NCBI RefSeq assembly: GCF_009663395.1
Contig: NZ_QKNW01000001.1
Location: 496,001-560,000, forward strand
Origin: Halosegnis longus
GTDB lineage: Archaea; Halobacteriota; Halobacteria; Halobacteriales; Haloarculaceae
Length of the DNA stretch: 64,000 nucleotides
Direction of reading: 5' to 3'
The position numbers and the translations under genes are program-made. The notes beneath the pieces are model-generated. The model was not told the DNA's origin, did no database searches, and was given only the letters and a program-made list of their open reading frames with translations. Of this stretch, positions 34,400 to 61,707 are shown piece by piece (positions within the stretch are counted from its first letter, which is position 1; every line of letters begins with the position of its first letter).

Positions 34400-35266
34400 T
34401 CACTCCATTGTGAGGACAGCAAGGGAGGCGAACATCGCTTCCTCAGTTCGCACGACCTTGCTGCCTTGATTCGGGACCGTGTTGAGCCAGAGGTCGAACC
34501 GCGAGAGCGGTTCGTCTGTGTCGCAATCAGAGCCGGGCCCGTCGCCCGACCCGTCGGTTACGTCGCTCGGTTCGACACCGAGTATCTCCGGCAGCCCCCG
34601 CTTGGGAGCGCCGAAGACGACGGTACTGTCTCCACGCGCGGGCTCGATATCCTCGAGCAGTCGCGTAGAGACCGGCTCGCCGTGTCGCGACGCAGCGATA
34701 CGAACGCCGGCGTCGGAACGAGCGAGCACGGTTTGCAGGTCCGCGCGTTCCACCTGATACCCCGACGGCGGGGTTGCAAGCAGTCGCGCGCGCACCGGTC
34801 GTCGCGAAGTAACCCTGACTGTGACGCGTTCTCCCTCCCGTGGCGTCGCCATCGTCGGCGGCACGGGCAGCGAGACCGGGTGTTGCATGCCGCAATTGAC
34901 CCGAACGCGGTCGTCAGATCCGACCTCGGTCACGATTCCCTGTCTTAACGACCCCGAATCGTCTGATTCGGAGCCGGTCTGTGAAGCGACGCGGAGCGGC
35001 GGCAGGACGCCAACGTACGCCAGTTCGTCACGCCTCCCCCACAACTCCTTTCGGAGTTCCGGGGGCGTGGCCGCGTACCGTAAGACGGTATCGACGAACC
35101 CGTCGCCGAACCGCCCGTCGTCGCCCGACGAATCGGGGTAGACGACGAGACGGTCCACCCGAAAGATGACCGCCGCGCGTGCGACGTAACCGAGTTTGCG
35201 AGTCGCCTCGCGTTTGTCCTCGGCCTCTCGGGTCAGAGACGACGGCACGAGTACGGTGCGTGTCAT
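34400..35266 (-). CDS. SPOUT-family RNA methyltransferase (Mth1/SPOUT1 type)
   Basis: 288 residues. The N-terminus TRTVLVPSSLTREAEDKREA and VARAAVIFRVDRLVVYPD, then GVLPPLRV, match the archaeal DUF171/SPOUT1 family, with an OB-fold-like insert (GIVTEVGSDDRVRVNCG). The C-terminal trefoil-knot region has VFGAPKRGLPEILG and LNTVPNQGSKVVRTEEA. It is probably an rRNA uridine-N3 methyltransferase. It is the conserved first gene of the archaeal uL3 operon; the ATG at 35266 agrees with the promoter position. Confidence 0.88.
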   Translation of the reverse strand: MTRTVLVPSSLTREAEDKREATRKLGYVARAAVIFRVDRLVVYPDSSGDDGRFGDGFVDTVLRYAATPPELRKELWGRRDELAYVGVLPPLRVASQTGSESDDSGSLRQGIVTEVGSDDRVRVNCGMQHPVSLPVPPTMATPREGERVTVRVTSRRPVRARLLATPPSGYQVERADLQTVLARSDAGVRIAASRHGEPVSTRLLEDIEPARGDSTVVFGAPKRGLPEILGVEPSDVTDGSGDGPGSDCDTDEPLSRFDLWLNTVPNQGSKVVRTEEAMFASLAVLTME

Positions 35267-35474: not shown

Positions 35475-35545
35475 GCACCGATAGTGTAGTGGTATCACGT
35501 GACCTTGCCATGGTCACAACCCGCGTTCAAATCGCGGTCGGTGCA
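35475..35545 (+). tRNA. tRNA-Gly (anticodon GCC)
   Basis: 71 bases. Acceptor stem GCACCGA pairs with TCGGTGC plus discriminator A; the anticodon arm reads GTGACCTTGCCATGGTCAC with GCC in the loop; the T arm contains GTTCAAATC. No intron and no encoded CCA. A T-rich promoter-like stretch (CCTTTTACTC) lies about 35 bases upstream. Confidence 0.96.
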
Positions 35546-42904: not shown

Positions 42905-43386
42905 GGTTCAAGATCGTCCCGCCGGTGCCCGACTCGCCGGCGCGCATCGAGACGGTGTGGAAGGCCGTCCCCATCGTCCCCGACCCGGAGGACTCCTGTT
43001 GTCAGCGGCTGATGGCCGACGCCGGCGTGCCCTCACAGGACGAGGCGAAGGAGTGGCTCACCTTCTGTCGCGCGCTCGAACTCGCCGAGGAGGGGCCACG
43101 CGGCTACGCCCGGGTTCGCGACGGCTACGACCCGGCCGCCTTCCCCGAGCGGTTCCGCGAGCGCGTCTACGCCGTTCCCGAACTGCTCGCCGTGCTCGCC
43201 GATGCCGACGAACCGCTTTCGCCCAAACAGGTGTTCGACCGCCTGCGCGAGCGTGTGCCCGCGTGGGAGCGCGCGCGGACCGACGACTGGGAAGGGACGT
43301 GGACACGGCGGGTCGAGCGACTGCTGGAGTGGGCGGTGTTGTTCGGTCTCGCAAAGCGGGCGGGCGACGGCTACCGCGCCGCCTGA
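42901..43386 (+). CDS. Conserved haloarchaeal protein coupled to mch
   Basis: 161 residues from a GTG overlapping the mch stop. MRFKIVPPVPDSPARIETVW, then CCQRLMADAGVPSQDEAKEW and a C-terminal helical part (LEWAVLFGLAKRAGDGYRAA) that resembles a winged-helix region. I do not recognise the family. Overlap with mch suggests a related role, but nothing catalytic is seen. Confidence 0.7.
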   Translation: MRFKIVPPVPDSPARIETVWKAVPIVPDPEDSCCQRLMADAGVPSQDEAKEWLTFCRALELAEEGPRGYARVRDGYDPAAFPERFRERVYAVPELLAVLADADEPLSPKQVFDRLRERVPAWERARTDDWEGTWTRRVERLLEWAVLFGLAKRAGDGYRAA

Positions 43387-58324: not shown

Positions 58325-58409
58325 GCGGGGATGGCTGAGTCTGGCCAAAGGCGGCGGACTTAAGATCCGCTCTCGTAGGAGTTCGTGGGTTCGAATCCCT
58401 CTCCCCGCA
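58325..58409 (+). tRNA. tRNA-Leu (anticodon TAA)
   Basis: 85 bases, class II with a long variable arm. Acceptor GCGGGGA pairs with TCCCCGC plus A; the anticodon arm is GCGGACTTAAGATCCGC with TAA in the loop; the T arm has GGTTCGAATCC. No intron and no encoded CCA. A T6 run follows immediately. Confidence 0.97.
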
Positions 58410-59331: not shown

Positions 59332-60522
59332 TCAGGCCGTCGTAATCAGTTCGATGACGTCGCGCTCATCGAGCACGTGGTCGCCGCCGACCTGTCGCTC
59401 GGTCCGGCAGTCGATGCCGTGGAGCAGGCCGTCGCCGATATCCGAGTGGATGTGGTAGGCGAAATCCGAGGTGGTCGACCCGCGGGGCAGGAGAAAGCAG
59501 TCGCGGAACTCACCCTCCTCGTCGGCCTTCCCGTTCGCGCTCCCCGGAAAGACGGGCATCACGCCGAGCACGTCGAACAGCGCGCGCTCGATTGCGCCCT
59601 GAACGCCGGTTCCGTCGTACTCGCTCGTGAAGTCGGCAATGGCCTCCAGCCCCTGCTCTTGCTCGTCGGAGATGTCGCCGACGATATCGAACTCGGCGTC
59701 ACCGGGCGTGTAGTCGACGACGCCGCCCTCCGCGGCGTTCTTGAGTGCCTTCTCCGCGTGCGCGCTCGTCGGGACGAAGGTGAGGTGCTCGTAGTCGTCG
59801 TCCGTGGTCACTTCCTCCCAGTTTGCCTGTGCCTCCGGCGTGTCCATCTTGTTGGCCGCGATGAGGATTGGCTTCGTCTCCTTGCGAATCTCGCGAGCCA
59901 GTTCGAACCGGTCGTCGTCGTCCCACTCTCCGGGTTCGAGCGAGAGGTCACACCGGAGGATGAGCTTCTTGATTTCGTCTTTGTTGGTGCGGAACGCCGA
60001 CATCTGTTCGGCGAGGACGACCTCTACGTCGGTGTTTTCCTTGTCGTAGGCGTCGGCGTACTTGTCGAGTCCCTTGCCGAGAATCTCCAGATACCACTGG
60101 TCGAGTTCGTCTTCGAGGAAGTCGATGTCCTCGCGAGGGTCGTGACCCTCGGTGCGTTCACCCTCGGCGTCGGTCGTCCCGGAGAAGTCGACGACGTGGA
60201 CGAGCGCGTCGGCCTCGTTCAGGTCGGTGAGAAACTGATTGCCCAGCCCCTTCCCTTCGTGTGCGCCGGGGACGAGTCCGGCCACGTCGAGCAGTCGGAC
60301 GGGGACGAATCGCGTGCCGTCGTCGCAGTAGCCGACGCTCGGGGTGCAGGTGGTGTCGAACTCGGGGGCCGCACAGTCGACGCGCACGTACGCCTCGCCG
60401 ACGGAGGGGTCGATTGTCGTGAACGGGTACGCGCCCTCAGGCACGTCGTTCATCGTCGCCGCGTTGAAGAACGTGGATTTGCCGACCGACGGCTTCCCCA
60501 CGAGACCGATAGTGTAGCTCAT
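59332..60522 (-). CDS. ychF: YchF/OLA1-family GTPase
   Basis: 396 residues from the ATG at 60522. G1 GKPSVGKST near the N-terminus, G3 LDVAGLVPGA, G4 NKMD (which would favour GTP, unlike the NMxE of bacterial YchF), and a C-terminal TGS domain ending RDVIELITTA. The family binds ribosomes and acts in translation and redox stress. A TATA-like element precedes the ATG by about 25 bases. Confidence 0.93.
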   Translation of the reverse strand: MSYTIGLVGKPSVGKSTFFNAATMNDVPEGAYPFTTIDPSVGEAYVRVDCAAPEFDTTCTPSVGYCDDGTRFVPVRLLDVAGLVPGAHEGKGLGNQFLTDLNEADALVHVVDFSGTTDAEGERTEGHDPREDIDFLEDELDQWYLEILGKGLDKYADAYDKENTDVEVVLAEQMSAFRTNKDEIKKLILRCDLSLEPGEWDDDDRFELAREIRKETKPILIAANKMDTPEAQANWEEVTTDDDYEHLTFVPTSAHAEKALKNAAEGGVVDYTPGDAEFDIVGDISDEQEQGLEAIADFTSEYDGTGVQGAIERALFDVLGVMPVFPGSANGKADEEGEFRDCFLLPRGSTTSDFAYHIHSDIGDGLLHGIDCRTERQVGGDHVLDERDVIELITTA

Positions 60523-60549: not shown

Positions 60550-60689
60550 CAATGTTGTTGCCGCGCCGTCCAGTGGTATGTGTTGTCGTGGTAGGGTTGA
60601 TGAGGCGTGTTTGACTCTCTTGCTCGGCGTGTCTGCTTCGACACCGTCTCGGAGGAACTCGTCTGTCGTTCCGGTCACTTCGACAGTAC

Positions 60690-61050
60690 CTCGAAAGCCC
60701 CCGCGCCGCTACGGTCGCACGGCGAGCGGTGCGGTATGGGCCACGGCTTCGATTGCCTATTCAGTCGATGCGGTGGCGTGGTCCGAGCGCGCCTCGTGCG
60801 CGCGAGTCAGCGCGAGGGATGAGCGACTGAAAGGAGCGAATCGGTTGGGGAGGCTCGTGGTGCTGCTGCTGTCGGGTGGACTGAAAGGGGCGGGCGTGTC
60901 GCGCCTGCGTGGTCGGTTCCGTGACCACTATCGGGAGCGAGCACCGCGAGCGACCGATATGTCACGGAGAGGCCGCGACACGCCCGGGGCTTTCAAGCCG
61001 TACTCACCAACGTAGTTGCGGTCACCAGACGACACGCCGGGGATTTCAAA
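60690..61050. repeat. Repeat mosaic with large nested inverted repeat
   Basis: Within the 645-base gene-free stretch 60523-61167. Short motifs of one type recur: GAAAGCCCC near 60696, CTGAAAGGAGCG at 60827, CTGAAAGGGGCG at 60881, GGGGCTTTCAA at 60986 and GGGGATTTCAA at 61039. The arms at 60881-60903 and 60974-60995 pair (TGAAAG with CTTTCA, then a 4x4 internal loop, then 12 perfect pairs GGGCGTGTCGCG). Inside are TCCGTGAC (60918) with GTCACGGA (60961) and ATCGG (60930) with CCGAT (60954). Left-arm copies lie 54 bases apart, as do right-arm copies. No coding evidence supports an open frame here. It may be a haloarchaeal repeat family or a structured RNA. Confidence 0.65.
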
Positions 61051-61167
61051 CTGAAACCAACAGAGCAGTCAGAGTAATCGAACACAAAGCCAAATCCACA
61101 CCTCCAGACAGACCACTTTCACCACGCTTGGCGAGCACCCTTACCCCAGCCGACCGACGCGAATTCC

Positions 61168-61707
61168 ATGCAGTCACCGAGCACAATCACGGCAGACGAG
61201 ACGTACTGGCTCCGGGGGAGCGCGGTCACGGACGCGGACACCGCGACGGACGCGTACTTCGAGGACCACGACGTACTCCGCCCCGCGGAGACGACGAAAA
61301 CCGACCTCCCGCCGACGGACGACGAGGCCGTCGCGCGAATCGACCGGGACGCACTCGGTGAGGAGAAGTTCATCGGCAAGTGGCAGGTCACGGGGTCGGC
61401 CGACCGCATCGACGCGCTGTGGCCGGATATCGTGGCGAGCGTCGAGTCCCAGACCATCTGGGCGGCGAAGGCGATGACGGGATTCGGCTTCGACGCGCTG
61501 GAGATGTACGACGAGTACGTGCTCGCGGTGTACACGCCGAACTACGTCGACACCGACGACGTGTATCGGGTGCGCGAGCACCTCCGCGAGGCTCACGGGG
61601 TCACGGAGCCGTGTTACTACAAGCCGGATATCTACACGGCGAACGGAATCGTCGCCGACAACATGGATGAGTTCGGACTGGAGAAGCCAGCGCGCTACGT
61701 CGAATAG
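61168..61707 (+). CDS. Putative phosphothreonine-lyase-domain protein (DUF1917/Bles03)
   Basis: 179 residues: ETYWLRGSAVTDADTATDAY, FIGKWQVTGSADRIDALWPD, WAAKAMTGFGFDALEMYDEY and VLAVYTPNYVDTDDVYRVRE match the haloarchaeal Bles03/DUF1917 group often called putative phosphothreonine lyase domain. The enzymatic role is unproven. Soluble. Convergent with purQ, 12 bases apart. Confidence 0.78.
   Translation: MQSPSTITADETYWLRGSAVTDADTATDAYFEDHDVLRPAETTKTDLPPTDDEAVARIDRDALGEEKFIGKWQVTGSADRIDALWPDIVASVESQTIWAAKAMTGFGFDALEMYDEYVLAVYTPNYVDTDDVYRVREHLREAHGVTEPCYYKPDIYTANGIVADNMDEFGLEKPARYVE

Follow-up and report, generated by a model that had tools for sequence, protein, structure and literature searches.

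A dispersed haloarchaeal repeat family with a strand-specific fold, a candidate mobile element acting as single-stranded DNA

The intergenic interval analysed here belongs to a family of repeats that occurs as dispersed copies in Halobacteria, keeps a fold conserved on one particular strand, swaps modules between copies and, in one case, is present in some and absent from other members of the same genus. We give an even chance to this family being a non-autonomous mobile repeat of Halobacteria, akin to BIMEs and PATEs, that folds as single-stranded DNA. Our confidence is equally divided over the interval itself, which we read as an old, decayed composite copy in which an inverted remnant of one module (A) is followed by a second module (B) and then by A, with tandem end units. 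The main rival to a mobile single-stranded DNA is a structured RNA. The family appears to be uncurated, with no Rfam family and no description in the searched literature.

The interval lies in the window, a stretch of 64,000 nucleotides of the Halosegnis longus chromosome. The initial annotation correctly saw a repeat structure here, but its unit (60690-61050) was drawn too small: the copy resembles others of this genome over 60620-61093, and at least two separable modules can be told apart within it. The hosting gap measures 645 bp and was rightly described as gene-free; the two ORFs that cross the interval (145 and 71 aa) have frames that are kept in none of the other copies compared by eye. 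The features are as follows.

59332-60522, minus strand: left neighbour gene, 396 aa, presumably a YchF/OBG-type GTPase judging by sequence motifs, divergent from the right neighbour
60620-61093, plus strand: entire composite copy of the repeat, which the genome carries about 20 times (similarity to L009:2021-2494)
60620-60689, plus strand: left flanking unit, seen as a tandem unit CTTCGACAGCACCGCGACCACTCTCGTTGCTTGGC... in other copies (copy comparison)
60690-60718, minus strand: inverted A-type remnant CTCGAAAGCCCCCGCGCCGCTACGGTCGC, kept as a full inverted hairpin at the orthologous locus of H. rubeus
60786-60881, plus strand: B core, with P1/H1 stem, GAGGGATGA, GA-ladder hairpin and GAATCGGYTGGGGAGGYNYGTGG (R1 covariance model, 64 bits, E = 1.3e-15)
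60818-60842, plus strand: GA-ladder hairpin GAT-GA-GC-GA-CT-GAA-AG-GA-GC-GA-ATC with a GAA triloop, a pattern also in 53 + 14 other copies
60838-60860, plus strand: most conserved stretch of B, GAATCGGTTGGGGAGGCTCGTGG (pattern search)
60878-60996, plus strand: A module, a nested hairpin, GGACTGAAAGGGGC...GGGGCTTTCAA, its frame shared by 26 fetched copies from several genera
60882-60903, plus strand: 5' arm of the A outer stem, TGAAAG + GGGCGTGTCGCG (repeat finding)
60919-60925 / 60961-60967, plus strand: A second stem CCGTGAC:GTCACGG, 7-8 bp (sequence)
60929-60934 / 60954-60959, plus strand: A third stem TATCGG:CCGATA, 6 bp (sequence)
60974-60995, plus strand: 3' arm of the A outer stem, CGCGACACGCCC + CTTTCA (repeat finding)
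61030-61050, plus strand: tandem second occurrence of the A 3' arm, CGACACGCCGGGGATTTCAAA, 54 bases downstream of its first
61168-61707, plus strand: right neighbour ORF, 179 aa, present in H. rubeus and missing at the matching place in genome G004

The window copy is thus a composite, its left half being the B core and its right half the A module. In the B core, the P1 stem with its inner hairpin H1 is followed by GAGGGATGA, a second hairpin and GAATCGGTTGGGGAGGCTCGTGG; scanning of the window with the R1 model gave 60786-60881 as the sole convincing match. A weak match at 43244-43322 (plus strand; 10.5 bits, E = 0.27) is probably due to chance. To the left, the complementary strings first noted as flanking the structure are indeed present, and GAAAGCCCC at about 60690 is complementary to A strings because it is what is left of an inverted A-type element; similar A ends also occur in genomes G003 and G005. 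By eye (locus L037 and genome G107), the left flanking unit resembles an inverted form of a further module, D, which elsewhere lies 3' of B. Neither terminal inverted repeats nor a target duplication is evident for B or for the window composite, the alleles lacking the element being too diverged to fix its ends.

The inverted repeat with three nested stems reported in the initial annotation is real and corresponds to the A module. Its outer arms, of 22 nt each and 86% complementary, form a 6-bp stem (TGAAAG:CTTTCA), a G-rich internal loop and a 12-bp stem (GGGCGTGTCGCG:CGCGACACGCCC), inside which lie the second (7-8 bp) and third (6 bp) stems. Folded as DNA, the block has a z-score of -4.3, equalled by none of 200 shuffles. 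Among the copies, the outer 3' arm of locus L021 carries a compensatory GC-to-CG change and others show wobble pairs; Halosegnis A modules contain G·T wobbles, and in some copies the third stem is swapped for an unrelated CTCTC/GAGAG stem. The A frame encloses at least two unrelated inner sequences, and its relatives are present in other families. Both arms had also been said to recur at 54 bases, and both recurrences are there. That of the right arm is meaningful, the 3'-arm unit being in tandem (one to three units) in most copies and, in another family, at locus L374, where tandem copies (about 50 nt) of the A 3' end resemble those of the window copy. On the other hand, the left-arm recurrence (60825-60838) is the apex of the B hairpin at 60818-60842; other copies are unrelated there, and we regard it as a coincidence. 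A-type elements of G003 and G005 (loci L042, L046, L047, L050, L051, L053 and L054) have, by eye, apparent GTGTTCAGNTA / TANCTGAACAC inverted ends reminiscent of MITEs.

A search of the H. longus genome (2.77 Mb) with the interval returned 34 matching pieces at about 20 places, all chromosomal, which bears out the earlier suspicion of a repeat family. Comparison of the sequence around each place showed elements of roughly 450-650 bp, together with partial, decayed and truncated copies, filling intergenic gaps irrespective of the direction of the neighbouring genes. H. rubeus holds about 22 places, and at 16 of the 20 H. longus loci one or both flanks align to an H. rubeus locus. Shared places differ in their hairpin modules, which are gained, lost or swapped: twin hairpins of the form TCCTGAAGTCTGCC...GCGTCTTGC or GGGAGAGCG...GCCGGC are found in one Halosegnis species and missing in the other, and in the ychF intergenic region of G004 the left unit is fused directly to the right unit, without B and A.

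These copies also bear on a role as a chromosomal DNA site, in which folded or extruded copies would, like some E. coli BIMEs, bind a host protein (a topoisomerase, nucleoid or replication factor). The copies at most places are common to H. longus and H. rubeus, GA-ladder hairpins (see below) would be confined to one strand, and 15 of the 18 B copies of the H. longus chromosome face the orc1/cdc6 cluster (1.100-1.115 Mb; p ~0.008, on a small number). However, the counts are small and the two Halosegnis species do not provide independent copies, most sampled genomes are without B, and G107 and G177 show a mixed orientation, on which ground a replication-oriented function was rejected. We consider a chromosomal DNA site improbable.

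The impression that similar blocks occur in other haloarchaeal genomes proved correct. Of 394 genomes of the order, 61 (from 20 of 95 genera) contain the exact 23-nt B pattern; the reversed control pattern occurs in none of the 394. In a sample of 394 genomes of the phylum, the R1 covariance model detected B in 44, the positives listed all belonging to the same order; since eight candidates were scored per genome, these hits are not copy counts. Five genomes (G029, G052, G060, G146 and G123) gave many R1 hits although the exact pattern found none. Exact-motif copies reach 75 per genome in other genera, and named hosts include Halosegnis, Halosimplex, Haladaptatus, Halococcus, Halorussus, Salinibaculum, Halolamina and Haloterrigena; the distribution is nevertheless patchy. 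The order B then A recurs across genera and families: in Halosimplex, in metagenome-assembled genomes and at loci L371, L373, L374 and L376. The conserved module D (...CGATAGCAGGACGCT) was seen 3' of B at L361, L358, L365 and others of family f7, as well as at L033 and L036, in some cases as tandemly repeated units some 40 nt long. A phage origin was rejected, no match being found in phage records; plasmid matches were few, short and unannotated. The literature, searched by sequence string and by topic, yielded no description of the family. Rfam gave no match over the interval at the gathering score nor at E values up to 1, in agreement with the first reading that this is not a known RNA. In the rest of the window, Rfam recognised an L4-Archaeoglobi ribosomal protein leader (RF03135) at 34815-34917 (minus strand, 67.7 bits), here in a haloarchaeon, and tRNA genes at 58325-58409 and 35475-35545 (both plus strand).

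The fold of B was assessed in two alignments. The first (A1) comprises 54 copies from many genera; its columns 1-9 and 125-147 were fixed by sequence selection, so that their invariance partly reflects sequence picking and is not evidence, while their partners were unselected. The 23 proposed pairs are paired in 89% of cases, compared with 74% in shuffles, and 168 cells are changed on both sides, compared with 50 in shuffles; none of 500 shuffles did as well, and slid controls scored far lower. The second (A2) comprises 22 copies found by the model and not by the pattern, and yields 91.7% paired cells against 72.8% in shuffles (0 of 500), although, being fitted to the structure, it leans toward it. 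In the P1 stem, G·T exceeds A·C by 40 to 1 in A1, where one of the six pairs is barred from A·C by the selection, and by 15 to 1 in A2 (24 to 1 for P1 and the ladder together). Therefore, one particular strand is selected; the B stems covary, and B folds on that strand only. It does not follow, as had been suggested, that the family is without a function, for a one-strand fold is kept by compensatory change across families; instead of a single unconserved copy lacking such changes, we find about 20 copies, relatives elsewhere that amount to thousands of bases, and strong compensatory change. A neutral duplicated sequence with an unselected fold would account for the decayed and truncated copies, but is contradicted by the covariation and the GA ladder kept across several families, and is almost certainly not the explanation.

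Strand-specific covariation is also what a structured non-coding RNA would produce. Here the copies would be transcribed from neighbours or cryptic promoters, and their fold would act in trans or stabilize transcripts, with possible spread by reverse transcription. Consistent with this, G·U-type pairs are frequent (pair 6-61 of A1 is G·T in 22 of 54 copies), variable stems surround invariant loops, and the predicted RNA fold is stronger for the plus strand (-163.5 kcal/mol) than for the minus strand (-135 kcal/mol). The lack of an Rfam match counts against an RNA, as do the loops and the genomic context described below, and taken together we find it a rather doubtful account of the family.

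The second hairpin of B is a GA ladder, which in most copies reads GAT-GA-NN-GA-NN-GA-NN-loop-NN-GA-NN-GA-NN-GA-ATC, with covarying Watson-Crick doublets alternating with unchanging tandem G·A doublets; the window copy has a perfect two-rung ladder. In A2, where the G·A positions were not modelled as pairs, the first two rungs are retained in 14 of 14 scored hairpins, and inner rung positions are G·A in 48 of 54 cases against 24% in shuffles. Three copies have rungs exchanged for Watson-Crick pairs (GATTCGCGA...TCGCGAATC), evidence in favour of the helix. The apex could be resolved in 98 hairpins: it is a triloop in 78, of the GNA type in 63 of those, and a GNRA tetraloop in none. The tandem GA stands in 387 of 542 cases in the 5'-Py-GA-Pu-3' context, the classical DNA rule for tandem GA. 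As RNA, mini-hairpins of the GCGAAGC type are much weaker. Their d(GCGAAGC)-type DNA counterparts, with a sheared G-A pair, are very stable according to a passage of PMC6582339 that cites Hirao 1994. The ladder with its many GNA triloops and no GNRA thus suggests a strand folded as single-stranded DNA over an RNA; this is not proof, as GNA triloops occur in RNA too.

The context of the B copies argues further on the same question. In other genera they are rarely inside ORFs, and the four possible gene orientations are about equally represented (19, 18, 13 and 12); therefore a cis-regulatory leader or terminator was rejected. If transcribed, one copy in two would run antisense to an adjacent gene, and the window block, lying between divergent genes, is outside both coding transcripts. 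Upstream of B no TATA-like enrichment was found, and neither was a T-rich end, both of which speak against an RNA.

Signs of mobility come from the genus of G107, where three species (G107, G046 and G119) have a B copy that is missing from the corresponding gene gap of five others (G063, G192, G124, G142 and G071). No clean insertion with a target duplication was seen; the intergenic flanks are too diverged to fix the ends, and therefore loss by deletion can also explain the absence. Close B pairs number nine in G107 and are without exception head-to-head, at distances of 198-281 bp (for example at 352340/352557 and 2739232/2739440 of its contig C1). Tail-to-tail B pairs were observed instead at loci L359 and L365 of family f7.

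Among known sources of such elements, decayed ends of IS200/IS605-type transposons, that is, PATEs as in Haloquadratum walsbyi, were considered. PATEs are without terminal inverted repeats and have near-terminal palindromes (PMC3119063), and the only TnpA-Y1 subclass that a survey reports from Archaea is the IS200 type (PMC6006769). However, B lies within about 1.5 kb of 0 of 50 Y1 loci and 0 of 30 TnpB loci, on which basis an origin through Y1/TnpB linkage was rejected, and Y1 transposases (PF01797) are lacking in H. longus and in 5 of 16 B-rich genomes. This origin is therefore very unlikely, and the earlier statement that the interval is no IS end agrees with these counts as regards known transposases.

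Returning to a mobile repeat folding as single-stranded DNA, we propose that the family spreads as DNA and that its top strand would fold while single-stranded. A putative enzyme would recognise the GA-ladder hairpin together with the adjacent unpaired G-rich loop CGGYTGGGGAGG; insertions next to one another, or joint processing, may give rise to inverted doublets and composites, and recombination between copies could then exchange modules. That this amounts to an undescribed class of archaeal mobile elements, moving via a folded DNA strand and recognised through a ladder of Watson-Crick and sheared G·A pairs with GNA triloops, is a tentative idea. Whatever its nature, this is a structured element with tens of copies in many Halobacteria. 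The one-strand GA-ladder hairpin is a testable signature of the family, which the R1 covariance model finds and which explains the recurrent GAGCGAACGNAGTGAGCGA-type strings of these genomes as foldable hairpins. If mobile, the family points to a novel mobilising enzyme in archaea, a domain in which RAYTs are not known; if an RNA, it would rank among the most repeated structured RNAs of this domain.

Several known systems offer a comparison. The window copy has no regular identical repeats with unique spacers; a CRISPR array was rightly dismissed from the start, as there are two imperfect pairs only and the sequence between them is also conserved from copy to copy. No curated Rfam covariance model matches the interval, and yet covarying stems on one strand are what B shares with structured non-coding RNAs. 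Large structured bacterial RNAs such as HEARO are, like B, multi-copy, structured, intergenic and strand-specific, but B has no linked IscB/TnpB and has DNA-type loops. MITEs are likewise short non-coding mobile repeats, and the apparent inverted ends of the G003/G005 A-type elements resemble theirs; in B and the window composite, whose ends could not be fixed, no terminal inverted repeats or target duplication are evident.

REP/BIME/REPIN sequences are closer: they too are short, folded, dispersed and mostly intergenic repeats forming inverted doublets and mosaics, with a strand-specific fold that includes mismatches and G·T pairs (PMC3733652, PMC3116915). The family shares with them dispersed, multi-copy, intergenic palindromes in inverted groupings, and the head-to-head pairs of G107 resemble BIME/REPIN-type doublets. 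In contrast, B-family cores span 110-130 nt (20-40 for REP), no GTAG/CGTC foot is found at the hairpin feet in A1, where only GTGG occurs, at the 3' end of the conserved loop, and no RAYT (Y1) gene was found linked to B at the 50 Y1 loci. PATEs and SMRs of Haloquadratum walsbyi are, like our family, haloarchaeal, transposase-free, multi-copy mobile repeats, PATEs having palindromes and no target duplication (PMC3119063). PATEs have their ends in common with IS605-type transposons, a feature that B lacks at the loci examined, and SMRs have inverted terminal repeats, of which none was seen for B (PMC3119063). Likened and set apart by their descriptions, PATEs and SMRs are the nearest described haloarchaeal kinds.
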